DNA from: Synechococcus sp. HK05
GTDB lineage: Bacteria > Cyanobacteriota > Cyanobacteriia > PCC-6307 > Cyanobiaceae
Length of the DNA stretch: 64,000 nucleotides
NCBI RefSeq assembly: GCF_019104765.1
Contig: NZ_JAHRXJ010000012.1
Span: 1-64,000 of the forward strand
Direction of reading: 5' to 3'
Below are positions 6,672-53,666 of the stretch, piece after piece. Every line of letters begins with the position of its first letter. Position 1 is the first letter of the stretch. Made by a program: the position numbers and the translations under genes. The notes under the pieces were generated by a model that was given only the letters and a program-made list of their open reading frames with translations, was not told where the DNA came from and did no database searches.

Positions 6672-8321
6672 TCAGATCGGCTCGAGAGCATCGAGCAGTG
6701 CCTGCAGTTCCGTCTGCGGATCACGCTGCAACACCGCGATGACATCAGGGCTGGTGGCTGCGGCCTGAGCGATGGCTGCGCCAATGGCACCAGGCAACTG
6801 ATCCGCCAGTTGCAATCCCATCGCTGTGATCTCCCCGTCAACGGTGACCAAGGCCAGATTGCTCAGCCACTCCATGGCACCTCGGCAGACGGGGTCCTTG
6901 AACGCGATGCACCGCAGCAGTTCGCGGCACTCCGCTGCATACAGAAAGAGCCGCAGGGCGCGGTGCTCGGCCCGCTGTCGAGCGGTGGATGCGGAGGGCT
7001 CGATGCGCGCAGCGTTGCTCGGGGCGTTGGCCCGGGTTGATGACGGCTTGTCGCCCTGCTCCTGCAGAGCCACGTTCAGCCGCTGCTCCGCCGAGCGGCG
7101 CAATACCCCGTCAGGCAGCTGCTCAATCAGGGCCTGACCGGCCTGCTCCACCGCTTGGAGAGTCTCCAGTGATGGGGAAGCACTGCCTGAGGCCAGCGGA
7201 GCCAGAAGCCGGTCCAGTCGCCACTCCAACCAATGCTGGGCTGAGACGATCAGGCCCTCAACAGCAGTGGGACCCTGGCTGCGAATCAACCCGTCGGCGT
7301 CATGGCCCTCGGGCAACTGCACCACCGAGGCGCTCAACCCACCGTTCACCAGCTGCGGCTGCAACTGTTCAATCAGGCGTTGTGTAGCGGCCTGCCCCGC
7401 GCCATCGCCATCGAGAGCCATCAGCAGGTGCTTCATCCCCTGGCGCCTAAGCAGCTGCAGCTGTAACTCCGAAACGCTCGTGCCCAGGCAGGCCACCGCA
7501 TGGGTGAACCCCGCCTGGTGGAGCTGGATCACATCCAGCGGACCTTCCGCCAACAGAGCGGTGCCCTCCTTACGGATGGTCTCGGCTGCCTGGTCCAAGC
7601 CGAACACCAGCCCGTTGCGCTGAAACAGCAGGTCTCCTGTGCTGTTGCGGTACTTGGGTTCCTGGCTGCCGGTGGCGCGACCGCAGAAGCCCACGGTCTG
7701 GCCTGAGGCGTCGTTGAGCGGAATCGTCAGACGGCCGCCCGCGTACCCCAGCTGCCAGGTGCGAGCGGTCTCGGTGCAGATGCCACGGGAGCGGAGGTAG
7801 TCAGCGCCAGCGCCACCCTGCTCCAGCTGTTGCAAAAGGGCCTGGTGGAACTGCTGGCGCTGCTCCGCGCGCTGAGCCATCAACTGACGGCGCTCGCGCC
7901 ATTCCTGCTCAAAACGCGCCTGCGCCTCGGGGTCGCCTTCCACCACCGTCACCCCGTTGCGCCGGGCCAGCTCCAGCACGGCCTCCTGAAACGACAGGCC
8001 CTGCCTGTCCTGCAGCCAGCCGATGGCATCGGTGCCCTTGTCGCAGACAAAGCAATGCACCCGGTTACGCGTCGGGCTCACAGTCAGTGAGGGGCGGCGA
8101 TCGTCGTGCCAGGGGCAGCGCGTCACAAAATCCCGACCACTCTTCTTGAGTTCGGCGGGCCCAAAGAGATCCGTGATCTGGGCCCGTTCACGCACGCTCT
8201 CCAACACCGCCGGCGTGAGCAGCCCAGCCGGGCGCCCCGAAGGGTGCCCACTGGGTGCACGCCGGCCAACTCCTGCAACCACCCGATGAGGGGCGGCTTT
8301 GCCGCTGCTGTTCATAGGCAC
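6672..8321 (-). CDS. Element-encoded DnaG-type DNA primase
   Basis: A 549-residue protein with a CHC2-type zinc finger (CPWHDDRRPSLTV then HCFVCDKG, about residues 69-96) and a TOPRIM domain (ALLAEGPLDVIQLHQAG and LLMALDGDGAG, about residues 250-310). It would lay down RNA primers for element replication. It is clearly different from a chromosomal DnaG, having a short basic N-terminus and a C-terminal part without a recognised helicase-interaction domain. The start overlaps the helicase stop by ten bases, so the two are translationally linked. A broken copy of its 3' end lies at 1031-1190. Confidence 0.92.
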   Translation of the reverse strand: MPMNSSGKAAPHRVVAGVGRRAPSGHPSGRPAGLLTPAVLESVRERAQITDLFGPAELKKSGRDFVTRCPWHDDRRPSLTVSPTRNRVHCFVCDKGTDAIGWLQDRQGLSFQEAVLELARRNGVTVVEGDPEAQARFEQEWRERRQLMAQRAEQRQQFHQALLQQLEQGGAGADYLRSRGICTETARTWQLGYAGGRLTIPLNDASGQTVGFCGRATGSQEPKYRNSTGDLLFQRNGLVFGLDQAAETIRKEGTALLAEGPLDVIQLHQAGFTHAVACLGTSVSELQLQLLRRQGMKHLLMALDGDGAGQAATQRLIEQLQPQLVNGGLSASVVQLPEGHDADGLIRSQGPTAVEGLIVSAQHWLEWRLDRLLAPLASGSASPSLETLQAVEQAGQALIEQLPDGVLRRSAEQRLNVALQEQGDKPSSTRANAPSNAARIEPSASTARQRAEHRALRLFLYAAECRELLRCIAFKDPVCRGAMEWLSNLALVTVDGEITAMGLQLADQLPGAIGAAIAQAAATSPDVIAVLQRDPQTELQALLDALEPI

Positions 8322-10015
8322 TCCACTCCGGGGTAGAGGTCGCTGCCGATGAACAGGTGCCTGGCTTCATCCGCTTCCAGATAGCAGTGGGCCCGGTCCA
8401 TGCGGATCGTGGTCTTGCTGCAGTCGTCTTCTCCGCTCATCTGGCCGTGGCGGAACTTGCCGTGGTGGATCTCGAGCACACCCGGCTTGGGCTTGCTGAA
8501 TTCATCCAGCTTGGGCCGATCGATCAGCCACACCGCCGAGGCGTAGCGCTCCAGTTCTGAGGTGCCGGCGAGGTGGGAGACATCGGGGCCGGTGGGGTTG
8601 CCGTAGGCGCCGCGGTTCAGCTGCGCCACCACAAAAATGTCGAGTTCACAGCGGCCAGCCAGGGCCTTGATGGCCGTTGCCCTGGCGGCCAGTTCCGCGG
8701 TGGTGTTGCTGCCGTAACCGGGCGTGGGGCCCATGGCGTGGAAGTGATCGAGCACTACTGCAGCCAGTTCGGGGTGAGCGCTCTTGCAGTCCTCCACCAG
8801 CGCTGCCAGTTCCTCCACCGTGGCGGCGAAGTGCGATTGGTAGAGCACCCGGCCCATGCGTTGGCCGTTGGGGGCAATGCTTTCTGCGAACTGAGCAGAG
8901 AGCTGATCGAGATACTCGAAATCGCGGCCCTCGATCACCTCACCGCGGCCCTCCAGTTCATTGGCTGAGTAGCGGGGTGTGAACACCCCGCTGGCGCGGC
9001 GGCAGTAATTGGCCAGTAGCCGTGCACCGATGGCGCGGCGGCTCAATTCACAAGAGAGCACCAACACCGAGGCGCCATTGATGGCCAGGCCCATCGCCGC
9101 CGCAATACCCACGGTGGTTTTGCCCACACCGGACTTAGCCGCCAACACCCAGGTGCTGTCGCCCGTTCCAGGGAGAACGCCGCCACGCATGTCGATGTCC
9201 AGAGAAGGAATCCCTGTGGAGATCGGCTTGGGGCGTTGCTCTGCCGGGAGGGAAGCCAGCGCCAGACACTCGCGCCGGGCATCGGCCTCGCTGCAGACCT
9301 GGAAGCTCTGGCGGTAACGCCCCGCGGTGATCGAGGTGGCGTCATTGAGGAGCTGGCGGCAGCTCTCCAGCTCGTCATCGATGAGGTTGTCGATCTGCTC
9401 ACGCGCCAGGAGCTTGCGCAGCCCTGGATAAAACAGCGCCCGTGCCTTGGCGCTCTGGAACAGCCGGCAAGCGATTTTGAAGTCCAGCTCGGGGTGAATC
9501 AGGCCGTCATCACCCCAGGCGATCACCTCCGAGAGGGCTTCTTCTATCTGCAGCAGCGAGCCGCGGAAACGGCCATCCAGGGCGCGTTGCCGCACGTCCT
9601 CCCGAATCGCGTAGGCATTGAGCACATCGATGTCACGCCGGCCGCGGAACAGCTCGTCGATCTCCAGTGCCAGGGCCCTGAGGCCCGGTTGGGTCCAGAT
9701 CGAGCCCGGCACCATCTCGTCAAACCGCAGCCCAATGGCGCGGCGGAACAGGCCCCAGCGCTCGTGTTGATCGTCGGTTCCCACCAGGACGGCAGCCAGG
9801 AGGTTTTTCTCGTGCTCGGCGAGTGAGTGAGTCGCCGGCACCTCCGGCACCTCGGCCGCCATCAACCCAGCGGCGGTCTCGATAAAAATCCCCTGATCAA
9901 TCATCCGCTGGATCAGCGCTGGATCGAAGCCGCCGGGGATGGTGGGCGTTTGATCCGGCTGATGGGAGTTGTTGTCAGCGGCGCCGGCAGAGGGTGTGGT
10001 GATGGAGTCAGTCAT
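8312..10015 (-). CDS. Element-encoded DnaB-type replicative helicase
   Basis: A 567-residue protein with a RecA/DnaB-fold ATPase in its C-terminal half: Walker A AAKSGVGKTTVGIAAAMGLA, then SVLVLSCELSRRAIGARLLA, a Walker B-like AAVVLDHFHA, and VAQLNRGA. The N-terminal half contains the DnaB-like EKNLLAAVLVG helix. It would unwind the element at its origin together with the primase that overlaps it downstream. The ATG at 10015 was chosen over 10036 because it gives a normal polar N-terminus (MTDSITTPSAG). The gene upstream is the Rep-like protein at 10078. Confidence 0.9.
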   Translation of the reverse strand: MTDSITTPSAGAADNNSHQPDQTPTIPGGFDPALIQRMIDQGIFIETAAGLMAAEVPEVPATHSLAEHEKNLLAAVLVGTDDQHERWGLFRRAIGLRFDEMVPGSIWTQPGLRALALEIDELFRGRRDIDVLNAYAIREDVRQRALDGRFRGSLLQIEEALSEVIAWGDDGLIHPELDFKIACRLFQSAKARALFYPGLRKLLAREQIDNLIDDELESCRQLLNDATSITAGRYRQSFQVCSEADARRECLALASLPAEQRPKPISTGIPSLDIDMRGGVLPGTGDSTWVLAAKSGVGKTTVGIAAAMGLAINGASVLVLSCELSRRAIGARLLANYCRRASGVFTPRYSANELEGRGEVIEGRDFEYLDQLSAQFAESIAPNGQRMGRVLYQSHFAATVEELAALVEDCKSAHPELAAVVLDHFHAMGPTPGYGSNTTAELAARATAIKALAGRCELDIFVVAQLNRGAYGNPTGPDVSHLAGTSELERYASAVWLIDRPKLDEFSKPKPGVLEIHHGKFRHGQMSGEDDCSKTTIRMDRAHCYLEADEARHLFIGSDLYPGVECL

Positions 10016-10077
10016 GGCCTGCTTTGCGAGGAACAAGGCGGGTGGGGTTGCTGTTGCGGAGCACTTGGCCTTTGGGG

Positions 10078-11133
10078 TCAGTGCTGTCTGGGGGGCTGGC
10101 TGAATTGCTCGGCGGCGCTGCCGGGAATGCCTTCTCCCTGGGCCTCAAGCAGCTCTGCCAACCGCTGCTTCTCGCAGCGATCGAGCTTGGCGGCCTCGAT
10201 CCCCCGGCCATGCCAGTGATCGCGGTTCCAAAAGAGCAGCCGGTTGGCTTTGTCCAGATCGCTCTCCTGCATGCCCGGTGCAACCCCTTGGCCCACTCCT
10301 GGAGTGTTCCCACCGTTGCCGCCGTTGAGCCGCCCGGTGTAAGCGCCCCAGGCAAAAATGTGCCAGTGCTCCACACCACGCCCCTCAGACGCGCGATCCA
10401 CCTGGAGCAAGGCACGGGCGCAATCCGCGCCGCTGCGCTCTTGCGGGTATTCGGTGCACCAGAACTCAGGCATCCCCCGCAGCGCCCGGATCAGCGCTTC
10501 CTCAAATGCCTGAGCGCCACCGGCGTGGCGGATCGCTTGCCGCAGGCGACTGGCCAACAGCGTGCCAGTGGGCTTGTAGGCGGGCCAGGTCTCGGGCTTG
10601 TGCTGGTTGTAGGTGGCGGCGAACTGGGCAATCAATGGGCTCTGCAGCGGCGCACGCTTGGGCTCAGCTGAGGGTTCCGACTGCGTCTTTGCGATCACTC
10701 GTGGCTGAACCACGGCGCAGGCTTGCGTCTCGGAAGTGCTCGGAATCTCTGCTGAGGTCACCAGCGACTGCAGAAGCTCCTGGGATGCGCAGTCCTGCTC
10801 ATCAGGCCCGGAGGCTTCGATCTCCGTGGCGGCTGACATCAGCGTCACCGTGGTGCCTTTGGCATCGCTGCAGAAGCGCAGCCAACCGAGGGTTTGCAGA
10901 TCATCCAGATCCGCTTTCAGCAACCGCGGTTGTACGAACCAGGCTGCTCCCAGATCTCTCAGAGTGACGCGCACATCACGGTTGCTGCGGCTGCGCCACT
11001 GCAGGTAGCCGTAGAGCTGAGCGACCCGCAACACCCGCCCTGGCCTGAGCGAACCCTGCCGCGCATTGCTCAGCCTTTGCAGGGCTGCATGGGTCTGACG
11101 GATCGCCTCATTGCGGATGCAGAAGAACTGCAC
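10078..11133 (-). CDS. Putative replication initiator (winged-helix protein)
   Basis: A 351-residue protein. The first 110 residues look like a winged-helix DNA-binding domain (RVAQLYGYLQWRS, VTLRDLGAAWFVQPRLLKADLDDL, LGWLRFCSDAKGTTVTL). A polar linker follows, then a second domain (SPLIAQFAATYNQHKPETWP, SRLRQAIRHAGG, MPEFWCTEY) reminiscent of helicase-loader or replication proteins of phages and plasmids. I infer an origin-binding or loading role from its place as first gene of the primase-helicase operon and from the iteron array directly upstream (11335-11467). No catalytic motif is visible. A GTAGCCTCCC motif lies 35 bases before the start. Confidence 0.65.
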   Translation of the reverse strand: MQFFCIRNEAIRQTHAALQRLSNARQGSLRPGRVLRVAQLYGYLQWRSRSNRDVRVTLRDLGAAWFVQPRLLKADLDDLQTLGWLRFCSDAKGTTVTLMSAATEIEASGPDEQDCASQELLQSLVTSAEIPSTSETQACAVVQPRVIAKTQSEPSAEPKRAPLQSPLIAQFAATYNQHKPETWPAYKPTGTLLASRLRQAIRHAGGAQAFEEALIRALRGMPEFWCTEYPQERSGADCARALLQVDRASEGRGVEHWHIFAWGAYTGRLNGGNGGNTPGVGQGVAPGMQESDLDKANRLLFWNRDHWHGRGIEAAKLDRCEKQRLAELLEAQGEGIPGSAAEQFSQPPRQH

Positions 11134-11161
11134 GGTGTGATCAGGAGGACCAGCCCCTGAC

Positions 11162-11187
11162 GAGCTGCGGGAGGCTACTGGCGGTGC
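11162..11187 (-). promoter_or_regulatory. GTAGCCTCCC motif upstream of rep-like gene
   Basis: On the minus strand the core GTAGCCTCCC occupies 11178-11169, preceded by CACCGCCA. The same core with the same left context occurs on the plus strand at 14206, 14739 and 18627, each time just upstream of an element gene. It could be a promoter element or an operator. Confidence 0.55.
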
Positions 11188-11269
11188 TCGTGAGGTCCTG
11201 TCAACTCAGACCAACGCCCTGCTCAAGGCCGCTCATCTGCCTGATTCCTCCTTCCCCCCAAAGCCGGCT

Positions 11270-11467
11270 GTTGGCTTGCTTGTTTGTCTTTGTTTTTTGG
11301 ATTGATTCTCTAAAACCTTTCAGAGATATAGATGTGCCGCACGGGGTGCATCACCCCTGAGGCACCGGGTGCAGCAGTGACTGAGGCACGGGATGCAGCA
11401 CAGACCTCAATCAACAAAACCTGGCCGTGAGGCATGGGATGTAGCAGCTGAGGCATTGGGTGCCTCA
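11270..11467. other. Putative replication origin with iterons and AT-rich patch
   Basis: Five direct repeats of about 19 bases, consensus TGAGGCAYBGGRTGYAGCA, begin at 11335, 11358, 11382, 11428 and 11449. Starts are 23, 24, 46 (twice 23) and 21 bases apart, about two helical turns. Directly left is an unusually T-rich stretch (about 11272-11330, including TTTGTTTTTTGG) that could be an unwinding element. The array sits between the divergent Rep-like gene and the sigma-factor gene. Repeat phasing plus the AT patch is the classic plasmid or phage iteron origin layout, though an operator array for Rep or sigma control is also possible. Confidence 0.7.
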
Positions 11468-11525
11468 CGCGCGCCACCGCCATAACCCACATCGCACAAG
11501 CGGCGCAAGGGTGAAACCACGGGGA

Positions 11526-12485
11526 ATGCTCCCGGCAGTTGCGCCCATTCCCATGCCTCCTCGTCATGCACCCGTTGCCTCCACCGTCCACACCTGGCTG
11601 AACACCAGCGCTGCCCATCGCCCCTTATGCGAGCGCACGGTGATGGAACTCTCCCGCCGGATTCAGCGCTGGCAACAACATCCCGATGGCCCGGCCCATG
11701 CACCCAAGCCCGTGCGCCGCAGTGCCCTACGGGCTCGTGAGCAGCTGGTGCGCCACAACCTCGGCCTGGTGGCCCACACCTGGAGCCGCCATCGCTGCAG
11801 CCTCCCCGCCCATGACGACACCACGGCCGATGCCCTGCAGGAAGCCGCACTGAATCTGGTGCGGGCAGCAGAGAAGTTCGATCCCACCAAGGGTTACCGC
11901 TTCTCCACCTACGCGACGTTCTGGGTGCGGCGCGGTCTTGCCGAGTTCGAGCAGCGGTTCAAGCGCGCCATTCGCTTCCCCGCAGAGAAGGCAGCGGTGG
12001 TGATCAAGGCGCTGCGGCTCAGCCAGGACCACCTGGCCAACACCGGAGATGAACCCACCCTGGAGTGGCTGGCCGCCCAACTCACGTTTGATGGCAAGCC
12101 GCTGCCTGCGGGGAAGTTGGCGGAGTTCATTCAGCAGTGGGATGCCACACGCACTGGTTCGCTGGAGGCCAGCGATGACGGCAGTGAGGAGAACGCCGGC
12201 AGCTCCCGTCTGGATCTGGCGTCACAGCGCCAGGCCGCCGAGCAGGAGCAGCTGGAGGCGGGCGATCCACATCACTCGGCCCTACCGCACTTAATGGCCT
12301 GCCTGGAGGAGCAGGAGCAGCAGATCATCCGAAACCGCTATCTCCGCCGTCCGCCCCTGAGCCCCTGCCAGCTGCGCAAAGCCATGGGCGGTATGGAGCC
12401 AGAGCGACTCAAGGAGTTGGAGGAGCAGGCCCTCACCAAACTCCGCACCGCCGCCGAGCAGCGCAAGAACGAGTTCGACGCCTAG
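11526..12485 (+). CDS. Element-encoded sigma-70 family factor
   Basis: About 319 residues. A region 2-like block reads DALQEAALNLVRAAEKFDPT, KGYRFSTYATFWVRRGLAEF, then a region 3-like part (AIRFPAEKAAVVIKALRL). At the C-terminus a region 4-like helix-turn-helix follows LEEQEQQIIRNRYL and ends ELEEQALTKLR. This is a complete alternative sigma factor, most like cyanobacterial group 2/3 proteins in region 2 but divergent. The start is uncertain: ATGs at 11460, 11526 and 11553 are in frame, and the first lies inside the last iteron. It could direct RNA polymerase to element promoters such as the GTAGCCTCCC sites. Confidence 0.82.
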   Translation: MLPAVAPIPMPPRHAPVASTVHTWLNTSAAHRPLCERTVMELSRRIQRWQQHPDGPAHAPKPVRRSALRAREQLVRHNLGLVAHTWSRHRCSLPAHDDTTADALQEAALNLVRAAEKFDPTKGYRFSTYATFWVRRGLAEFEQRFKRAIRFPAEKAAVVIKALRLSQDHLANTGDEPTLEWLAAQLTFDGKPLPAGKLAEFIQQWDATRTGSLEASDDGSEENAGSSRLDLASQRQAAEQEQLEAGDPHHSALPHLMACLEEQEQQIIRNRYLRRPPLSPCQLRKAMGGMEPERLKELEEQALTKLRTAAEQRKNEFDA

Positions 12486-12509
12486 TTCATCTCCAGGGGC
12501 CAGCCCCCA

Positions 12510-12547
12510 ACACAACGCCCAGGGGCAACTACCTATGGGCGTTGGTT
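12510..12547. promoter_or_regulatory. Inverted repeat between sigma and LuxR-type genes
   Basis: Perfect arms AACGCCCA (12514-12521) and TGGGCGTT (12536-12543), with partial pairing extending outward. It could be the operator of the downstream regulator or a weak terminator of the sigma gene, as the right side is T-rich. Confidence 0.35.
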
Positions 12548-12604
12548 GTTCTGTGGTGCAAGTCGCGGTTGTGTTGCTACACCAGGGTGATCGACCTGGG
12601 GGTG

Positions 12605-13399
12605 ATGCAACCCGAGGAGTTCCGCAGCCAGATCCACACGCTGCAGCAAGCGATTGAGACCCTGCTCGATGGCTGGACCCTGGTGGTCTGCTCCAACCAC
12701 CAGCGGTTGCTTGACACCGCGGCCTTGCTGTTGCCAGCCCTGCAGTTCACCGCCTCTTCCACAGCGGAGTGTCTGGCACTTCCGTTACCCAGCGAGGGCA
12801 AGTTGCTGGTGATCTGCGATGACGACGGCGCTGATTGTGGGGCCGTGGAGTTGATCAGCCAGATGCGCGAGCGCCATGGCGCCGGGCGCTGCTGCTTCCT
12901 TCTTTGCCTGGACGCAGGCATCGCCGCCTCACGCCTGGTGCACCTCTGGCGCCTACGGCCCGATGGCCTCAGTTGCCGGGAACGCTGCGGGAGCGGGCGG
13001 CTCTTGCAGTGCGTGGCCGTGCTCCTACGCAACGGCCGCTACGAAGACCCCGCCCTCTCCGATCGTCTGCGGCAGTTGTTTGCCGATGTCACCCCCGCCA
13101 GCGAAGGTATCGGGCTGACCCTCAAAGAAGAGCGCATCGTGCGGATGGTGGCGGGCGGCCGAAGCAGCCGCGAGATCGGCTCACAACTGGTGATGCGGGC
13201 TGATTCGGTGCGCAAGGTGTTCTGCGAGCTGTACAAAAAAACAGGCGCCACTGGCCGGGGCGCCTTGATGATCTGGGGTCTGGAGCACGGGGTGCTCAAG
13301 CAGCAAGATCTCGCCTGCCAGCTGCGCCCACCACGGCGGAAAGCGCAGGCCGCCGCGGCAGGTGGCAGCAAGCGCCGGAGCCGAGCAACACATCGCTGA
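12605..13399 (+). CDS. LuxR/FixJ-type HTH regulator with degenerate receiver-like domain
   Basis: About 264 residues from the ATG at 12605. The N-terminal 150 residues resemble a receiver fold (LVVCSNHQRLLDTAALLLPA, KLLVICDDDGADCGAVELIS, CCFLLCLDAGIAAS). The C-terminus is a LuxR-type helix-turn-helix: LTLKEERIVRMVAGGRSSRE, IGSQLVMRADSVRKVFCELY and KKTGATGRGALMIWGLEHG. A basic Ala/Arg tail follows. It follows the sigma factor and probably regulates element genes. Its last 104 bases overlap antisense with the gene at 13296-13751, which could allow mutual interference. Confidence 0.75.
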   Translation: MQPEEFRSQIHTLQQAIETLLDGWTLVVCSNHQRLLDTAALLLPALQFTASSTAECLALPLPSEGKLLVICDDDGADCGAVELISQMRERHGAGRCCFLLCLDAGIAASRLVHLWRLRPDGLSCRERCGSGRLLQCVAVLLRNGRYEDPALSDRLRQLFADVTPASEGIGLTLKEERIVRMVAGGRSSREIGSQLVMRADSVRKVFCELYKKTGATGRGALMIWGLEHGVLKQQDLACQLRPPRRKAQAAAAGGSKRRSRATHR

Positions 13400-13751
13400 G
13401 CCGATCAGCGGCCAGAAGTGCATCGAGCTCAATGATCTGCACCGCCTCGCGCTGACGGGGAAGCCAACCGGCGAGCAGGCCGCGATCACCAAGGGGCAGC
13501 GGCTGGGGCAGCTCGAGCCGTTGGCCGAGGAACGGCAACCAGCGCTCGAGGCCATCGCTCTCGCGCCAGGGCTCAAAGCTGGCCACCTCCACCAGCTGCT
13601 TGAGTGTGGTTTCGCCATAGCTGAGGGAGGTGAGATACATCACGTCCTTGCGTTGCTCGGCCTCAAGCGGCAGGGGCATCCAGAAGCCGCGATCAGCGGC
13701 GTTCTCGAGGGCATCGCGGTGGTGGTGGGTGAGCAGAACCTTGGTGGTCAT
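13296..13751 (-). CDS. Hypothetical protein of the element
   Basis: A 151-residue protein starting MTTKVLLTHHHRDALENAAD, RGFWMPLPLEAEQRKDVMYL and TSLSYGETTLKQLVEVASFE, then PWRESDGLERWLPFLGQRLE. The first half reads like a conserved soluble domain but I cannot name it. The C-terminal residues overlap the LuxR-type gene on the other strand, so codon choice there is constrained. It is the only minus-strand gene between 11.1 and 17.5 kb, and the palindrome array at 13805-13862 lies just upstream, making it a likely regulated gene, possibly accessory to mobilisation or defence. Confidence 0.65.
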   Translation of the reverse strand: MTTKVLLTHHHRDALENAADRGFWMPLPLEAEQRKDVMYLTSLSYGETTLKQLVEVASFEPWRESDGLERWLPFLGQRLELPQPLPLGDRGLLAGWLPRQREAVQIIELDALLAADRLSDVLLGSGACCHLPRRPALSAVVGAAGRRDLAA

Positions 13752-13804
13752 GGCAGCGAGGAATCACTGCACCGGTTCTGGCTTTGAGGCCCCGGTTGCC
13801 ACCG

Positions 13805-13862
13805 CCCACAGCTGTGGGCTCACCTGACCCACAGCTGTGGGGTCAGCGCGTCACAGATGTGG
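13805..13862. promoter_or_regulatory. Palindromic operator array CCCACAGCTGTGGG
   Basis: Two perfect 14-base palindromes, CCCACAGCTGTGGG, at 13805-13818 and 13828-13841, and a third degenerate copy (CACAGATGTGGG, 13852-13863). Centres are 22-23 bases apart, so dimers would bind the same DNA face. The array is 54 bases upstream of the start at 13751 (minus strand). A binding protein of the element, such as the LuxR-type regulator, is a candidate. Confidence 0.6.
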
Positions 13863-14015
13863 GATGAGTGTGGGCATTCAGTTGGCGACATCAAGTCGCG
13901 ATGGGGGATTTCACGGAACGGGGTGTGGCTCAAGCGGGCCATTCCCTCAGCCTTTCTTCCAGGGCGCAACCCCACAACACAGCCCCAACTCCACCGAAAG
14001 GGGCCCTGCTCCCCA

Positions 14016-14030
14016 TCGGAACCCTTGGGG
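14016..14030 (+). promoter_or_regulatory. TCGGAACCCTT motif, copy 1
   Basis: TCGGAACCCTTGGGG. Similar sequences lie at 14696 and 18211, each in a non-coding stretch upstream of plus-strand element genes. Role unknown. Confidence 0.35.
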
Positions 14031-14200
14031 AGTTGCACGCGCTGAATGTCGTTGATCTCTCGGGGAGCCGCCTTTGGCGGCGTGTTGGCTCTGGTGGTGC
14101 AGGCGTGTGGGCCGACACCGCTCGGGGCAGTGGTGCGAGGGGCGTTTGTTGTGCCGGCTTATGCCACCAGATCAATGGCGGTCACTGGGATCCAGGGAAC

Positions 14201-14224
14201 CGCCGGTAGCCTCCCGCACCTGCA
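14201..14224 (+). promoter_or_regulatory. GTAGCCTCCC motif upstream of sigma-like gene
   Basis: Core GTAGCCTCCC at 14206-14215, followed by GCACCTGCA. The copy at 14739-14748 matches it over more than 20 bases. Confidence 0.55.
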
Positions 14225-14233
14225 CAACCCTGC

Positions 14234-14674
14234 ATGCCAAAACGCTGTCTGCGCCGGCCGATGACCAGCGCCCAGCGGGCGTTTGCCTGTGAACACCTGG
14301 GCCTTGCCCATCAACAGGCGCACCGCTTTGCCCGCCGCTGGTCGATGGCCGTTGATGACCTGCTCGGCCCGGCCTACGAGGGCCTGTGCAAAGGCGCCGT
14401 TGGCTTTGATCCAGCGCTGGGCCATCGCCCCTCCAGCTATCTCGTCCCGAAGGTCAAAGGCGAGTTGCTGCACTATCTGCGCGATACAGGTTTTTCGCTG
14501 CGCATCAGCCACCGCCTGCGGGAGCTGTGGATCAAAGCCCGCCGATATGTGGCCCAAGGCCTCAGCGATCAACAGATTGCGGCAGCGCTGGATGTACCGC
14601 TGGAGCGCTGGCTGGATTGCCGCCGTGCCTGCGGACAACGGCCCGTGCCGCTGCATGAACTCCAGCGCGATTGA
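14234..14674 (+). CDS. Short sigma-70-like protein (regions 2-3 only)
   Basis: 146 residues from the ATG at 14234 (or 137 from 14261). The segments QQAHRFARRWSMAVDDLLGP, AYEGLCKGAVGFDPALGHRP, SSYLVPKVKGELLHYLRDTG and ISHRLRELW match region 2 and the start of region 3 of SigB/SigF-type sigma factors (GL..A...FD, F/PSSY, GE..HYLRD). A helix-turn-helix-like GLSDQQIAAALDVPLERWLD follows, but no full region 4. It may be a compact element-specific sigma factor, a co-factor, or an anti-host decoy. It is the second sigma-like gene in this element. Confidence 0.7.
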   Translation: MPKRCLRRPMTSAQRAFACEHLGLAHQQAHRFARRWSMAVDDLLGPAYEGLCKGAVGFDPALGHRPSSYLVPKVKGELLHYLRDTGFSLRISHRLRELWIKARRYVAQGLSDQQIAAALDVPLERWLDCRRACGQRPVPLHELQRD

Positions 14675-14695
14675 GCACAGACGTTGATGTCCACG

Positions 14696-14711
14696 TCGGA
14701 ACCCTTTGGGG
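14696..14711 (+). promoter_or_regulatory. TCGGAACCCTT motif, copy 2
   Basis: TCGGAACCCTTTGGGG, 28 bases upstream of the GTAGCCTCCC core before the phosphoesterase gene. Confidence 0.4.
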
Positions 14712-14732
14712 TCCGCTCAGGTTTTTCAAGCA

Positions 14733-14756
14733 CCACCAGTAGCCTCCCGCACCTGC
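14733..14756 (+). promoter_or_regulatory. GTAGCCTCCC motif upstream of phosphoesterase
   Basis: Core at 14739-14748, flanked by CACCA on the left and GCACCTGCA on the right; 16 bases separate the core from the ATG at 14765. Confidence 0.55.
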
Positions 14757-14764
14757 ATCTCTTT

Positions 14765-15937
14765 ATGGGTTCAGCCAAACACCGCCAACAACCACCCCGT
14801 CATCTCCCCGGCCGGGGGCCAACACCGGCCATCAGCAATGATCAAGACCGCGAACTCCTGCAGTTCAACGTGCGTCTGGCCAAAGCCCGCCAGGCACAGG
14901 CCGACACCAACCGGATCGAACGCAAGGCCTTCCGCGAGCACGCCCGCGTGGAGAACGCCGTGGCTGCTTACTCCCGTGAGCTGTGCTCCTTGCTCGATGA
15001 GCGGGGGTTCACCCAGGGCGTGACGCTCTCCCGCATCCCGGAGGGCGGTGAGTCCGTGTTGATCGTGCAGCTCAGTGATCTGCACTTCAATGAGCGCGTT
15101 GAACTCCCCTCCAACCGCTACGACTTCACCGTGGCAGCTCAACGGTTGCGGAAGCTCGCCCAGCGGGTGAAGCAACTGGGGCAGAGCTACGGCGCCCGCA
15201 AGGTGGTGGTGGCCTGTCTGGGGGATTTCCTCAACAGTGATCGCCGCCTCGATGAACTGCTCAGCAACAGCACCAACCGCTCCAAAGCCACGCTTCTGGC
15301 GGCGGACATCCTGCGAGCGTTTCTGCTCGATCTGCGCGAGCAGTTTGAGGTTGAGGTGTACGGCATCACCGGCAATGAAAGCCGCGTGAACAAAGAGCTC
15401 GGCTGGAGTGATGAGCTGGCCACCGACAGCTACGACTTGATGATCTACGAGATCCTCAAGCGCGGTTTTGCCGGCACCGATGGCATCGCCTTCTGCGGCT
15501 TCCGGGCCAATGAACTGCTCTTTGAGGTGATGGGCCGAACGTTCCTGTGCCTGCACGGCCACCAGATCGGCGCGAACGTTCAGAAGTCCGTGCAGGAAAT
15601 CGCCGGCAAGTACGCCGCCCAGGGGATCACGGTCGACTACACGCTGTTCGGCCACCTGCACGCCAGCGCCATCGGCGACTACCACGCCCGCAATGCCTCG
15701 CTGGTGGGCAGCAATGCGTACTCCGAGGCGGGCCTGAACTTCTGCAGCAAGGCCGCTCAGAACGTCCACATCGTGACCGGTGCGAAAGGCACGGGCGCCA
15801 TTGATGGCATGAAGGTCGACCTGCAGGACGTGAGCGGAACCGAGCCCTATCCCTTTGCCGCCGAATGGGAGGCCTACTGCCCTAAGAGCGAACGCAAACT
15901 CCACACCCCTTCTGTCGTCTATCAGGTTGTTGTCTGA
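14765..15937 (+). CDS. Calcineurin-type metallophosphoesterase of the element
   Basis: A 390-residue protein. After a charged helical N-terminus (about residues 30-75) come the metal-binding motifs of the family: LSDLHFNE, VACLGDFLNSDR, GITGNES, CLHGHQIG and LFGHLH. The usual GNH(E/D) is GNES here, so the catalytic His is replaced; the other metal ligands are present. Similar enzymes occur in phages, where substrates are mostly unknown (DNA, cyclic or other nucleotides). The ATG at 14765 directly follows the conserved motif at 14733-14756; an upstream ATG at 14684 would place that motif inside the gene. It overlaps the next gene by one base. Confidence 0.85.
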   Translation: MGSAKHRQQPPRHLPGRGPTPAISNDQDRELLQFNVRLAKARQAQADTNRIERKAFREHARVENAVAAYSRELCSLLDERGFTQGVTLSRIPEGGESVLIVQLSDLHFNERVELPSNRYDFTVAAQRLRKLAQRVKQLGQSYGARKVVVACLGDFLNSDRRLDELLSNSTNRSKATLLAADILRAFLLDLREQFEVEVYGITGNESRVNKELGWSDELATDSYDLMIYEILKRGFAGTDGIAFCGFRANELLFEVMGRTFLCLHGHQIGANVQKSVQEIAGKYAAQGITVDYTLFGHLHASAIGDYHARNASLVGSNAYSEAGLNFCSKAAQNVHIVTGAKGTGAIDGMKVDLQDVSGTEPYPFAAEWEAYCPKSERKLHTPSVVYQVVV

Positions 15938-18678: not shown

Positions 18679-18876
18679 ATGAGCGACACCCTCTGGCTCA
18701 CTACCGCCGAGCTCTGCGCTCACCTGGCGATCAGCCGTTCCACGCTGTTCGCCATCCGTCGCGCAGGGCTCCTGAAAGACGGGCGCCATCTGGTGGCCAA
18801 GAACCCCACGAGCGCCCGCTCCCACCTCCTGTGGCACCGGCAGCGTTGTGAGCTCGCCCTCGGGAGGATCAGCTGA
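18679..18876 (+). CDS. Excisionase-like (AlpA/MerR-type) HTH protein 1
   Basis: 65 residues: LWLTTAELCAHLAISRSTLF, AIRRAGLLKDGRHLVAKNPT and a basic end. The order 'helix-turn-helix then wing' with L-T-x-x-E-x-C...SR-S-T-L is typical of AlpA-type regulators and recombination directionality factors. Placed next to the integrase, it is a good candidate for excision control. It overlaps the next, paralogous gene by one base. Confidence 0.72.
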   Translation: MSDTLWLTTAELCAHLAISRSTLFAIRRAGLLKDGRHLVAKNPTSARSHLLWHRQRCELALGRIS

Positions 18877-19085
18877 TGAGCTCCAAGAACAGCTCGAACG
18901 GCGATTGGCTCACGACCACGGAGCTCTGCCACTCCCTCGCCATCAGCCGCTCCAAGCTCTGCCGCTTGCAGCAGCGCAAGGTGTTCCGTCAGGGCATCCA
19001 CTGGGTGCGTAAGAACCCTGCCGCTCCCCGCTCCGATCAGCTCTGGTCGCTGGCAGCCTGCCGCTCTCTGCTCCACAAGCCATAA
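18876..19085 (+). CDS. Excisionase-like (AlpA/MerR-type) HTH protein 2
   Basis: 69 residues: DWLTTTELCHSLAISRSKLC, RLQQRKVFRQGIHWVRKNPA then SDQLWSLAACRSLL. It aligns with the protein at 18679-18876 along nearly its whole length (LTT.ELC..LAISRS.L, G.H.V.KNP), showing a tandem duplication. The pair may bind as a heterodimer or at different arm sites of the att region. A terminator follows within ten bases of the stop. Confidence 0.72.
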   Translation: MSSKNSSNGDWLTTTELCHSLAISRSKLCRLQQRKVFRQGIHWVRKNPAAPRSDQLWSLAACRSLLHKP

Positions 19086-19140: not shown

Positions 19141-20505
19141 TCAAGCCGCTTGCTGATCCCCGAGCATCCGACGCGCCACCGACGCCTTGGTCTGCTCGCC
19201 GGTGATCTCACTTAAATACGTGCGGCGGTGCACCTCAGGGCTGTGGCCCATCACCGCCGCCACGTCCGCGTAGTTCCAGGTCGTTGTCTCCCGGGCGCGA
19301 ATCGCATAGGCGTGGCGCAGGTCATAGGGCACGCAGCGCTCCTTGCGTTTCTGCGCTTTCTTCTTGCCCTGGGCCGGCACTGTGTCCACCCAGGCGTAGA
19401 GCTTGGTTTTCAGCTCAAATTCCGCCTTGGCATCAGAGCTGCGCAGCTTGTGGCAGCACACCGCACCCAGCCGTTCGTTGTTATCGCAGCGCTTCACTAG
19501 ATCGCGTTCAGGATCAAACGGCTGGCCGTCTTCATTGACGAACTTGGGCACGTAGCGGCGGCGCAGTTCCTCGAGTCGTTGTTCTCCGTTCTCTCCACCC
19601 AGCTGATAGCGCTCAACCCACTCCGCCGGGAGCGGCAGGGCCACCCGGAAGCCCGTTTTGGTCACCTTGATATGGCGGGCGGCCACACCGATGCTCACCA
19701 TCCCCTGCGCATCAGGAAGTTCGGCGATGTGCCACACCTCGTGGGGCCTGAGTCCGTAGGTGGCCACCATCGCGAACACCCAGCCCCAGAGCGGGTCTTC
19801 CTCCACCACCTGATCCAGCCACTCCTGAATCGCTGTAGTGCTCGGGATGCGGCGTCTGGATTCACCGGCAGCCACCAGGGCTCCCTTCTTGCGGTTCACC
19901 ATTCCCTTGAGCTCCTCGCTGAGGCTCTCCGGTGCAATCGCTCCGTAGCCAGCGCGGCGCAATAGCGACACCACCTCGCGCTTCTGGCGGAAGCCCTGGC
20001 GGTGCGTTGCCATCGGGATCAGCGGTGCTGTTGGGTCCTCCAGCCGCGCCTTGAGGCTCTCGCTGCTGTGCAGAGCAAACCTCCGCACGTCTGCCTCAGT
20101 AGCCGCACGGTCCGCCGGCAGCAAGCAGAAATAGCCCTTGCCCTTGAACGGACCCACCAGGTTCATGTTCACCCCCTGGCCCCGTTGAAACGCCACTACC
20201 GCGGCGCAGATCTCAGGCCAGCAGGGGGCGTTCGAATCGGAGCTCACGAGGTCTTGTTGACCGTCGGGCAACACGGCGGGCTTCCCGCTGCGGGTGGCCT
20301 CGATCAACAGGTCCTGCAGGCTCTCGATCGCCTCAGGGTCTGCTGCGGCATAGCCCTTCACCGTGTGCTCGCGGGTCGTGCCGCCCTTGCCCAGCTGGTA
20401 CACCGTGATCCAGGGGCTTCGCCGGTGCTCTCTCAGCCGGTAGCGGGCGCCGAAGGCGCGCAGCACCGCATTGCAGCGCTGCATGGGGCTCTGAATCGTG
20501 GCCAT
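19141..20505 (-). CDS. int: Tyrosine recombinase (integrase)
   Basis: 454 residues from the ATG at 20505; an ATG at 20619 would extend through the inverted repeats and is less likely. The C-terminal catalytic domain shows ATYGLRPHEVW (first Arg), VPYDLRHAYAIRA (HxxR-like segment), and VMGHSPEVHRRTYLSEITGE with the second His and the nucleophile Tyr. The N-terminal 200 residues would bind arm sites and the core. Location next to tRNA-Lys, pointing away from it, is that of site-specific integrases using a tRNA 3' end as attachment site. It should both insert and, with the HTH proteins, excise the element. Confidence 0.9.
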   Translation of the reverse strand: MATIQSPMQRCNAVLRAFGARYRLREHRRSPWITVYQLGKGGTTREHTVKGYAAADPEAIESLQDLLIEATRSGKPAVLPDGQQDLVSSDSNAPCWPEICAAVVAFQRGQGVNMNLVGPFKGKGYFCLLPADRAATEADVRRFALHSSESLKARLEDPTAPLIPMATHRQGFRQKREVVSLLRRAGYGAIAPESLSEELKGMVNRKKGALVAAGESRRRIPSTTAIQEWLDQVVEEDPLWGWVFAMVATYGLRPHEVWHIAELPDAQGMVSIGVAARHIKVTKTGFRVALPLPAEWVERYQLGGENGEQRLEELRRRYVPKFVNEDGQPFDPERDLVKRCDNNERLGAVCCHKLRSSDAKAEFELKTKLYAWVDTVPAQGKKKAQKRKERCVPYDLRHAYAIRARETTTWNYADVAAVMGHSPEVHRRTYLSEITGEQTKASVARRMLGDQQAA

Positions 20506-20556
20506 GGGAAACGCATCTCTGTCGTGAGTGTTCCCACTGATCAGGCTCCAGAACCC

Positions 20557-20612
20557 CCACTTCGTCTCACCTGATGAGACGAAGTGGATTCCTTGGGACA
20601 AGTCCCAAGGAA
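20557..20612. repeat. Two adjacent perfect inverted repeats upstream of the integrase
   Basis: First: CCACTTCGTCTCA (20557-20569), loop CCTGA, TGAGACGAAGTGG (20575-20587). Second: TTCCTTGGGAC (20589-20599), two-base centre, GTCCCAAGGAA (20602-20612). They lie between the integrase start and tRNA-Lys. They are candidate integrase or excisionase arm sites, operators of int, or hairpins of a single-strand origin or transfer site. Confidence 0.75.
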
Positions 20613-20739
20613 ATGACACAACTACGGTTTTCGGCGAATCAACCCGGACTCATTTCGCCCGGAGTGGAGTGCCTTCAGAAGCCCTGAAACCCCTTGCGCC
20701 GCAGGGTCAAACCCTTGCAGTCCAAACGATCTCAAGAAA

Positions 20740-20811
20740 TGGGTCGTCTGAGATTCGAACTCAGGACCAATCGGTTAAAAGCCGAGTGCTCTACCGCTGA
20801 GCTAACGACCC
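20740..20811 (-). tRNA. trnK: tRNA-Lys (UUU)
   Basis: Minus-strand cloverleaf with acceptor pairs GGGTCGT / ACGACCC, D-arm TAGCTCAGCGGTAGAGCA, anticodon loop CTTTTAA (anticodon UUU), and T-arm GGTTCGAATC-type sequence (GAGTTCGAATCTC). The 3' end at 20740 faces the integrase, so the element is attached at the tRNA 3' side. No second copy of the 3' end was found to the left in this window. Confidence 0.95.
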
Positions 20812-20937
20812 GCCCGGAGCTGGAGAACCAGGTTCGGGGGTGGCCCTTTCGGGCACCACGTGAACGTATCACCCGGAGGGTCCGCCCTCCAACCGCGCCG
20901 AGAATGGTGGGCCGAAGCTGCCTCGTGCCTGCCTGCC

Positions 20938-28328: not shown

Positions 28329-29819
28329 TCAGCGGTGAGAGGCAGTCGACATCAGAACCAACGCCGTCTGCGGTTGAAGCACAGCGGGCAGTGCCCCGCC
28401 CGCCAACTCTGGGGGCCACAGAACGGCCCCGGTTGAAGAAGCCAGCGGTAACGGCAGCGTGCGGCTGCGGTTCACCACCAGCTCCACCGATGACGCGCCG
28501 CCCGCATCACGGCGCCATAGACGTAATCCCTGCTCTACATAGGGGCCTGGCAGCCGCTCAACCTTCAGCTCAGCACCACGCAGGGCCGGTTGCTCACGGC
28601 GCAGCTGAGCTAACGAAGCAATGAACCCCCGCAGATCCTGCGGCCAATCACCTGGATCCCCCCAGGGAAAGGCCTCCCGGCAGGCCGGCTCAGCCCCACC
28701 GCTCAATCCAGCTTCCGTGCCGTAGTACACGCACGGCACCCCAGGCAGGCAGAACAGCAACACCAGCGCCATCTTCAACGCATCCACATCGCCCTGGAGC
28801 ATGTGCAGCGCCCGGGGCACATCGTGGCTATCGAGCAGATTGAGCTGGGCTTGATTCGCCTCCGGCCGGTACCAGCTGAGCGTTTCCAACAGCACCTCCC
28901 GATAGCGCTCTCCGCTGATGCAGCCGTATGGAATCGACTCGCGGGCATGGCCCTCCTGCAACCGTCCATCGGCCACCCAGCCCAACGTGCTCCAGGCGAT
29001 GCGGTAGTTCATCACCCCATCGAAATGCGCACCGCCTAGCCACTCGCGCGCATCCCCCCAGATCTCTCCCACGATCCAGGCCTCGGGGTTCACAGCCCGC
29101 ACCCGCCGCCTGAAATCCAGCCAGAACGGCGGCTCCACCTCATCAGGCACATCCAGCCGCCAGCCATCAATGCCGCGCTGTAGCCAGTGCTCACCCACTG
29201 CAAGTAAGTGCTCCTTTACCTGTGGGTTGGCGTGGTTGAACTTCGGCAGCGCCGGATCACACCACCAGCTGTGATAGCCGCAGGCCTCACCAGCGGCCGG
29301 ATACGCCTTCAACGGCCAGCGCTCGGTGATGAACCAATCGGCATACGGCGAGGCGGCACCGTTCTCCAGCAGATGGTGAAACGCCCAGAAGCCACGGCCA
29401 CAGTGGTTGAACACACCATCGAGAATCAGCCGCATCCCACGGCTCTTCAGCTCCACCACCAGGGCATCGAAGGCGGCATCACCACCCAGCAAGGGATCCA
29501 CCTGGAAGTAGTCGTAAGCGTGATAGCGGTGATTCGCCGCGGAACTGAAGATGGGGTTGAGGTACAGGCAGGTGATGCCGAGCTCCTGCAGATGATCGAG
29601 CCCCTCGATCACGCCGTAAAGATCACCCCCTTGAAACCCCACCCCATCAGGCGATGTGCCCCAGGGCTGCAGGGCCAGCCCCTGTTGCGCAGGCACGCGG
29701 CCGCTGCGGCGGAAGCGATCCGGAAAGATCTGGCACACCACCACATCCGCCACCCAGGCGGGCGGATCAGCCAGGCCCCCGCGGACATCCGTACTCACAC
29801 CAGCCCCATGCCTCTCCAT
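28329..29819 (-). CDS. GH13 alpha-amylase-family glycosidase
   Basis: 496 residues from the ATG at 29819. GH13 signatures in order: YLNPIFSSAANHRYHAYDYF (region with sugar-binding Tyr/His), ILDGVFNHCG (region I), GWRLDVPDEV with the nucleophile Asp (region II), WIVGEIWGDA with the acid Glu (region III) and NLLDSHDVPR with the transition-state Asp (region IV). The Asn-rich start (VVCQIFPDRF) and VPDEV suggest a neopullulanase/maltodextrin-glucosidase subgroup. It probably acts on glycogen or maltodextrins in the cytoplasm, as there is no signal peptide. Confidence 0.9.
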   Translation of the reverse strand: MERHGAGVSTDVRGGLADPPAWVADVVVCQIFPDRFRRSGRVPAQQGLALQPWGTSPDGVGFQGGDLYGVIEGLDHLQELGITCLYLNPIFSSAANHRYHAYDYFQVDPLLGGDAAFDALVVELKSRGMRLILDGVFNHCGRGFWAFHHLLENGAASPYADWFITERWPLKAYPAAGEACGYHSWWCDPALPKFNHANPQVKEHLLAVGEHWLQRGIDGWRLDVPDEVEPPFWLDFRRRVRAVNPEAWIVGEIWGDAREWLGGAHFDGVMNYRIAWSTLGWVADGRLQEGHARESIPYGCISGERYREVLLETLSWYRPEANQAQLNLLDSHDVPRALHMLQGDVDALKMALVLLFCLPGVPCVYYGTEAGLSGGAEPACREAFPWGDPGDWPQDLRGFIASLAQLRREQPALRGAELKVERLPGPYVEQGLRLWRRDAGGASSVELVVNRSRTLPLPLASSTGAVLWPPELAGGALPAVLQPQTALVLMSTASHR

Positions 29820-52694: not shown

Positions 52695-53666
52695 GTGTCG
52701 AATGAGCTGCTGCGCAACAGCTTCAAGTTGGCGGTGGCGGTGTTCATCACAGCCACTATTGCGGTCTGGACGGAACGCATTGAGTTTGTCTGGTATCCCG
52801 TCTTAGCGGCCATCATCGTTGTGGATGACAACGATGATCAGACGATCAGCGCCGCATCAGCCCGGATCCTCGGCACGGTGGCGGGCGGGCTGATCACCTT
52901 CATCGTGCACACAATCCTCTCCGGCTGGATGGGGGTGTTGGTGTCGCTTCTGTTGATGATTCCGATCCTGCAGGCGCTGGGCTGGCAGAGCGCCCTGGGC
53001 ACCGCAAGCATGACGAGCATCATGTTTTTGATGATCCCCAGCCACGTGGCGCTCAATTGGAACTACGTGTTCAATCGAGCCCTCGACACGGTGGTGGGAT
53101 GCGTGGTGGCGATCCTGGTGGGATTGCTGTTCTGGCCGCGCAACAGCTACCACGAACTCACGGCCGCCGACGCGCGGCTGCGCAGCAGCCTGCAACGCCA
53201 ACTGCGGCACTACAGCGCCTGGCTGCTTGAGCAGGCGGAGCGTCCCCTCCCCCTCAACCCGGCGCCCCTCACCGGTGATCTGCTGCGCATGGAGCAGCTG
53301 GTGAGCCGCGAACGCAGCGGCCCCCGCCACCAGATCCTGCGCCGCAGCCAATGGGATCAGCGGCTGCGGCTCTGGCAACTCACCCATTCCCACTGGCTGA
53401 GCTGGGAGCGGCTGATGCACTCCCTGCCTGAGCGCCCGCTCCAGCAGGCAGACCTGATCCGTGGCGCCGTGTTGGGCCTCGGAGAGCAGCTTGAGGCCCG
53501 GCCCCAGCCCACACCGCAACGCAATGCCCGGGCCTGGCAACAGCTGGCCGCGCGTGAACAGCTGCCCTTGCTGCCCCTGCTCGCCCTAGCGGAGGAGCTG
53601 CGCCCCCTGCATGCCTGCCTCGGGGGGCTCAACCGGCTCGCCCCCAAGCCAACGGCGCGGCCATGA
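52695..53666 (+). CDS. FUSC/aromatic-acid-exporter-type half protein 1a
   Basis: 323 residues from a GTG at 52695. About six N-terminal spans: ELLRNSFKLAVAVFITATIA, FVWYPVLAAIIVVDDNDDQT, ARILGTVAGGLITFIVHTIL, FNRALDTVVGCVVAILVGLL; then a helical soluble C-terminal domain. It matches one half of FUSC/AaeB-type exporters (full proteins have about 650-700 residues and two such membrane halves). Overlaps the second half gene by four bases. Confidence 0.82.
   Translation: MSNELLRNSFKLAVAVFITATIAVWTERIEFVWYPVLAAIIVVDDNDDQTISAASARILGTVAGGLITFIVHTILSGWMGVLVSLLLMIPILQALGWQSALGTASMTSIMFLMIPSHVALNWNYVFNRALDTVVGCVVAILVGLLFWPRNSYHELTAADARLRSSLQRQLRHYSAWLLEQAERPLPLNPAPLTGDLLRMEQLVSRERSGPRHQILRRSQWDQRLRLWQLTHSHWLSWERLMHSLPERPLQQADLIRGAVLGLGEQLEARPQPTPQRNARAWQQLAAREQLPLLPLLALAEELRPLHACLGGLNRLAPKPTARP

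Follow-up and report, generated by a model that had tools for sequence, protein, structure and literature searches.

The stretch analysed (the window) comprises 64,000 nucleotides of Synechococcus sp. HK05 DNA. A tRNA-Lys(TTT) gene and an integrase frame lie on its minus strand, with two perfect inverted repeats, IR1 and IR2, between them, separated by a single base (Table 1). Counted in the int/tRNA orientation with the anticodon-loop base T33 of the tRNA as position 0, IR2 is centred on 180, the start of IR1 follows at 193 and the ATG of int at 275; IR1 lies 51 nt upstream of the ATG.

Table 1. Features of the tRNA-Lys(TTT) attachment region and associated genes (window coordinates unless a locus is named)
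Feature	Position	Strand	Description
Small helix-turn-helix protein A ("XisA", our label)	18679..18876	+	candidate excision factor
Small protein B ("XisB", our label)	18876..19085	+	paralogue of A; candidate excision factor
Tyrosine integrase (int)	19141..20505 (including stop codon; ATG at 20505)	-	454 aa; assigned from frame, relatives and fold match
Integrase N-domain	20290..20505	-	coding part for residues 1-72; putative arm-binding domain
IR1	20557..20587	.	perfect repeat, arms 20557-20569/20575-20587 (13 nt, 5 nt between); GTCTCA half-site pair; putative site of small winged-helix-like proteins or int operator
IR2	20589..20612	.	perfect repeat, arms 20589-20599/20602-20612 (11 nt, 2 nt between); TTCCTTGGGAC and GTCCCAAGGAA face to face, a putative pair of integrase arm-type sites on the proximal side
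Approximate stretch exchanged, window versus G008B	20250..20610	-	most of IR2, IR1, int leader, N-domain
tRNA-Lys(TTT)	20740..20811	-	ARAGORN; regenerated at the element's int end
Attachment core	20740..20780	-	T33 to tRNA 3' end; recurs as half tRNA at distal ends
Genes ending ...DDAV.QGLSILAGLALG.S	L097 18543-18956; L102 18985-19353; L166 915-1349; L070 1694-2179; L004 5337-5543		

Matches to the core pattern were located at window 20752-20780 and on contig C5 of the same genome. A 221-base query on the region, searched against its own genome, matched itself, IR1 on the opposite strand and one place on C5, consisting of the tRNA 3' part and flank, and nothing else. A primase, a DnaB-like helicase, a sigma factor and a recombination exonuclease are encoded at 6672-15937. 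The element looks phage-derived because of these replication and recombination genes and because its DnaB and exonuclease are related to those of cyanophages PSS2, S-CBS2 and S-CRES. The protein encoded at 4030-4920 matches PHROG 731 and, partially, the PADLOC model PD-T4-6 (E 6.5e-6). ARAGORN also called a tRNA-SeC at 28334-28411; this call overlaps a 511-codon reading frame on the same strand and is possibly false.

The original prediction described two tandem perfect inverted repeats with arms of 13 and 11 bases, one base apart, and its coordinates proved exact: positions 20450-20850 hold these two and no others. Arms of at least 11 bases arose in none of 3000 dinucleotide shuffles of 20506-20739 (234 bases, loop at most 8), the longest shuffled arm being 10. 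Across the whole 64 kb, three perfect repeats have arms of at least 11 and a loop of at most 8, the third being at 52812. With up to one mismatch allowed, TTGTCCCAAG was found nowhere in the window outside IR2; CTTCGTCTCA was found in both IR1 arms and in one further copy with one mismatch. No terminator (a G+C-rich stem followed by a T run) was detected in 20400-20850, and no promoter was detected near IR1 or IR2 by a sigma-70 consensus scan, the sole scan made. A terminator or promoter reading of the repeats was rejected, there being no such site by consensus scan. A GGGAAC.CTC box precedes the int ATG by ∼30 nt in near-branch relatives (window 20506-20556).

Pfam and PHROG gave no match for the window integrase itself; of 26 relatives, 5 and 1 matched PHROG integrase families, which the window protein did not. 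A sequence-profile search of the PDB returned one weak, irrelevant match, and a search of IMG/VR returned 7 stretches that fitted a pattern, of which 0 were confirmed. The integrase was modelled with AlphaFold from 26 sequences (pLDDT 79); with 14 sequences the C-terminal half was poor (pLDDT 66). Foldseek gave 9 PDB matches at E ≤ 0.001, including Tn1549 Int, XerA, lambda Int and Cre, at low TM-scores (0.22-0.33), and VIA-align gave a Z of 14.0 for XerA and 11.5 for lambda Int. The body is thus predicted by the model to have a tyrosine-recombinase fold. The N-domain was modelled as a helix (7-17), three strands (22-26, 32-38, 44-53) and a second helix (57-73), an order that may correspond to the arm-binding fold; the VIA-align rows cover mostly residues 93-454 and hardly the N-domain.

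The nearest integrase genes were in Vulcanococcus and Synechococcus records and in genomes of the same genus and family, 32 of 400 family genomes having an integrase at E ≤ 1e-40. Regions starting at the tRNA-Lys 3' part numbered 39, of which 38 were from the 32 genomes and one from contig CANCJV. The CANCJV region is identical to that of G360 and the two are therefore probably one record counted twice. Fifteen regions lay beyond half tRNAs; the 6 with an inverted repeat were counted among the 39 and the 9 without were left out. The relatives are not independent and include several near duplicates. Left out of the integrase alignment (A2) were sequences with stops, a frameshift or truncation (G360, G007, G005, G085, G091, G022), fragments (in G423, G448, G284, G390) and near duplicates (G014B, G014A). 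G082 and G390b were placed in a class of their own by our choice, and the TGTCA[AC] pattern for G074 and G106 was set post hoc, after inspection of the sequences.

An IR2 equivalent was counted if perfect, with arms of at least 6 and a loop of at most 8. By this definition an equivalent is present in 35 of the 39 regions and takes one of two registers relative to T33, centred 178.5-181.5 nt away in 24 regions and 167.5-169.5 nt away in 11; the registers are about one helical turn apart. The sequence at this fixed place varies, with about nine to ten half-site classes (TTGGGAC, TTGGCA, TTTGGGGG, TTTGGGAC, TGTCAC, TGTCAG, GAGGAAC, TTGAAAC, TGTACC). G008B, G014B, G007 and G284 carry a third half-site copy, as do the TTGAAAC class and, G016 apart, the TTTGGGGG class. 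No IR2-type inverted repeat was found in four of the 39 regions: G091, with its integrase in two frames, G448, which is degenerate, and the pair G247 and G232, whose proximal sites are two direct copies, CTGTTCC-N5-CTGTTCC. According to the original prediction, arms eroded without compensation in relatives that have active elements would speak against function. This objection does not hold for IR2, where both arms were found replaced together; it applies in part to IR1, where the outer arms are partly eroded and ∼5-6 bp per half-site are kept.

Distal ends were marked by half-tRNA copies, 8 in the first genome set and 7 in the second. All 15 carry a direct pair of one half-site class with a period of 11-12 bp, the first site 69-72 nt before T33, and pairs of any other tested class were not found at these ends; the G238 end has, besides its pair, single matches to two other classes. 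The distal half-site equals the integrase-side half-site in 12 of 14 comparable cases, the distal end of G091 standing outside these as it has no proximal array. The agreement is 7/7 where both ends are on the same contig (G014A, G008A, G016, G074, G284, G199, G238; int to half tRNA ∼18-114 kb). By arithmetic, random dealing of half-sites would give 7/7 with a chance of 3!/7!, or ∼0.001, counting the near duplicates G014A and G008A separately. Cross-contig ends match the integrase side in G000 (the window's genome), G006, G106, G345 and G439; those of G257 and G390 mismatch the integrases found in those genomes. In G000 the half tRNA on C5 is accompanied by two direct copies of the IR2 half-site. 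This end presumably belongs to the window's element; it is on a separate contig and the match is therefore not proof of a single element. Together with the attP of cyanophage PSS2 (below), these counts argue that the core is flanked on either side by sites sharing one sequence, the window's far side being on C5.

Predictions were written before the second genome set was read, and 5 of the 7 testable ones were right (G284, G199, G238, G345, G439); those for G257 and G390 were wrong, and six further named genomes offered no distal end to score. Distal pairs predicted for G085, G055 and G082 were not found, nor was a half tRNA found there. In the stretches read, the closest relative, G024, showed no distal end, and neither did the TTGGCA elements carried by G014B, G008B and G007. 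Searching 15 whole genomes for direct pairs of CTTGGGAC gave three places, all at half tRNAs (reversed control, 1 match). A search for TTTGGGRS pairs gave 8 matches, 3 distal, 3 proximal and 2 elsewhere (control, 1). The 9 CTTGGCA matches were 3 proximal arrays (G014, G008, G007) and 6 elsewhere that were not inspected; the control gave 6 and this search therefore shows no enrichment by itself. For GAGGAAC the reversed-pattern control matched more often than the pattern, and its matches in G085 and G016 were rejected as distal pairs, being located elsewhere in those genomes. A small gene with a characteristic ending (Table 1, last row) adjoins the distal arm pair in several elements.

The half-site was found to follow the integrase N-domain. 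The window and G008B integrases are 97% identical in the body and 38% identical over residues 1-72, and their half-sites are TTGGGAC and TTGGCA; G006 and G016 are 92% identical in the body and 39% in the N-domain, with TTGGGAC and TTTGGGGG. The N-domain of G284, from another genus, is 92% identical to that of G008B and has the same half-site. Among 11 near-branch integrases, the 11 pairs of the same class have mean identities of 73% (N-domain) and 86% (body), and the 44 pairs of different classes 45% and 85%. The gap between same-class and different-class pairs was reached by 1 of 5000 label shuffles for the N-domain and by 848 of 5000 for the body. The nearest neighbour was of the same half-site class in 24/24 cases by N-domain and 15/24 by body, the test scoring 24 of 26 integrases (G020, without an assigned class, and G199, the sole member of its own, were left unscored). 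In DNA, the window and G008B are 36-52% identical from inside IR2 to about codon 85. Over the rest of int, in 50-base steps, they are 72-98% identical, all but one step being at least 82%, and the four steps before the exchanged stretch, back into the tRNA, are 68-96% identical. The comparison supports exchange of the N-domain together with its half-site between relatives.

Half-site and N-domain might, very tentatively, form an exchangeable address cassette of ∼360 bp, a proposal that we hold to be doubtful. If it were true, many elements could share one tRNA-Lys crossover site and be unmoved by each other's integrase. Tandem elements or remnants are stacked in the same tRNA-Lys, beyond the half tRNA, at L166, L054, L056, L162, L163, L160, L059, L053 and L070, and at L002 (540-1170) two small genes resembling, by eye, a VapB/VapC toxin-antitoxin pair lie beside a tRNA-Lys element remnant. 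A neighbouring array or remnant was readable at 9 of the 15 distal ends. The half-site of the neighbouring array differs from the distal one in 5/5 intact cases (G014, G008, G284, G390, G439); of four broken neighbours, those of G000 and G006, read by resemblance, look like another class and those of G345 and G016 like the same class. Address compatibility would predict this pattern; five junctions, including two near duplicates, do not suffice to show it, since random class draws would usually differ too.

Near IR1 the relatives share a short motif: of the 60-base stretches that follow the IR2 equivalent, 25/35 contain GAGAC or GTCTC (mononucleotide shuffles: mean 4.0, maximum 12), 16/35 at least twice, and it is the commonest pentamer there; it is absent from 10/35. 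GTCTC faces GAGAC at 12 bp in the window, G024, G022, G006 and G235, and two GTCTC are in direct orientation at 12 bp in G014B, G008B, G007 and G284. Conservation does not extend to the outer portions of the 13-base arms of the window, where some relatives still pair in part. No regular IR1-like pair was seen, by eye, at distal ends. The IR1 half-site outlasts exchange of the N-domain and IR2, and something else should therefore read it.

The candidates are the two small proteins. Protein A has an HTH_17 match that falls short of the curated cut-off (E 6.5e-4) and is conserved beside int in relatives; protein B is 49% identical to A over 51 residues, with a weak HTH_29 match (E 0.078). By regular-expression scan, two tandem paralogous small genes adjoin int in near-branch relatives, and in the far branch one small gene was found in 8 regions and none or weak matches in the others. 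The small helix-turn-helix gene near int expected of an RDF system is thus present, as two paralogues. In G008A, G005 and G016 (the TTTGGGGG class) the second gene has LRRW in place of the LCR, LWR or LGR found elsewhere, and the GTCTC/GAGAC pair is single or missing, which hints at a tie between the two; G439b, with LGR yet no pair, is a counter-case. From these sequences there is about an even chance that IR1 comprises excision-factor sites bound by the small winged-helix-like proteins.

A role of IR1 confined to int expression, as a repressor operator or a leader hairpin and without involvement in excision, is possible, with the odds somewhat against it. Its short distance from the int ATG suits such a role, inverted half-sites about one turn apart fit a dimeric repressor, and the outer arms still partly pair in some relatives. 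The set distance from the IR2 array and the lack of a recognisable promoter in the sigma-70 scan speak against it, and the direct orientation in four relatives is ill-suited to a hairpin. A protein other than the integrase could in turn read IR2, and the tie to the N-domain would then be hitch-hiking; this is conceivable because IR2 and the N-domain coding part are adjacent, so that one exchange moves both, and the exchanged stretch is continuous from one through the other. We consider it improbable, as it leaves unexplained the recurrence of the half-site at 18 to 114 kb from int in the seven cases with both ends on one contig, and the G008B N-domain and half-site recur jointly in another genus. 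Structural hairpins (a terminator, an RNA structure, or single-strand DNA for replication or transfer, the last offered by the original prediction) are highly improbable: perfect arms could fold on one strand, but half-sites are direct at 15/15 distal ends, in the proximal sites of G247 and G232 and in the IR1 of G014B, G008B, G007 and G284, no terminator-like site was found in 20400-20850, and the position is fixed relative to the crossover base.

IR2 very probably represents integrase arm-type sites. Recombinase binding, also put forward in the original prediction, is well supported for IR2 by the same half-site at the distal end, the fixed offsets and the change of half-site with N-domain; excisionase binding or int regulation, likewise suggested there, is plausible for IR1. 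We give a probability of roughly 0.8 to the overall reading that IR2 is an integrase arm array and IR1 a small-protein site in the attachment region of a mobile element in tRNA-Lys(TTT). IR2 would be the int-side array, with two integrase N-domains occupying its half-sites face to face, and further protomers would occupy the direct copies of this half-site at the distal end. The remainder of the integrase would act on the tRNA core at the anticodon loop, and arm and core binding would jointly build the recombination complex, a step adopted from lambda-type systems. The two half-sites of IR1, set about one helical turn apart, would most likely be bound by the small winged-helix-like proteins, which would steer the reaction towards excision. 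Both arrays are just upstream of the int start and could therefore also regulate or time int. The pairing of ends by half-site, the fixed geometry and the following of N-domain by half-site are supported by comparison; we infer actual binding, the binder of IR1, int regulation and the activity of this copy of the element.

Arm sites are usually located system by system through footprinting. The nearly fixed geometry found here (sites ∼70 nt from T33 distally and at 168 or 180 nt towards int) would allow them to be read from sequence, with their N-domains, in an integrase group without a Pfam match. The natural domain exchanges, with 97% identical bodies and 38% identical N-domains, provide material for testing how arm-binding domains read DNA, and also whether elements can stack in a single tRNA gene by having differing addresses. 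In the open-access literature searched, which gave thin returns, no account was found of these picocyanobacterial sites or of whole-domain exchange together with the site.

That arm-type sites are read by the integrase N-terminal domain is established, and the integrases of lambda, Tn916 and L5, in the part of the source available, likewise combine an N-terminal domain with a recombinase body and have short repeated sites on both sides of a core (PMC8138268), here a tRNA core. Unlike in those systems, the proximal pair here is mostly palindromic, the distal pair is direct, the offsets are nearly fixed and the integrase is without a Pfam match. The attP of Cluster K mycobacteriophages is described, in the sections seen, as having predicted arm-type sites, some oppositely oriented, with arm-site changes paired with N-terminal substitutions, and Pixie and Tweety are said to have a common tRNA-Lys attB and different arm sites (PMC3203893). 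A few substitutions are involved in that case, whereas here the whole N-domain and half-site are replaced, with several classes within one integrase group. With RdfS-type directionality factors a winged-helix protein binds attP upstream of int, beside an arm-type site, and the available text reports no consensus motif (PMC11963761); here, by contrast, two tandem paralogues lie beside int and the GTCTCA half-site recurs, binding being a prediction.

Phage records with a related integrase were limited to three entries of cyanophage PSS2 (GQ334450.1), at 27.6% identity. In this free phage genome a perfect palindrome, AGTGACACCGGTGTCACT, is centred 182 nt from T33, as in the window group, and distal sites are at -72 (AGTGACA) and -59 (AGTTACA). 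As in the window, int is followed by a small convergent helix-turn-helix-like gene, resembling the window's two, and the PSS2 DnaB is 34% identical to the window's. PSS2 differs in that its core, judged by eye, is like a 3' half tRNA with a CAT anticodon (ARAGORN calls no tRNA at this place), the sequence of the palindrome is another and the second distal site is at 13 bp. The PSS2 layout links the integrase group to a cultured phage.
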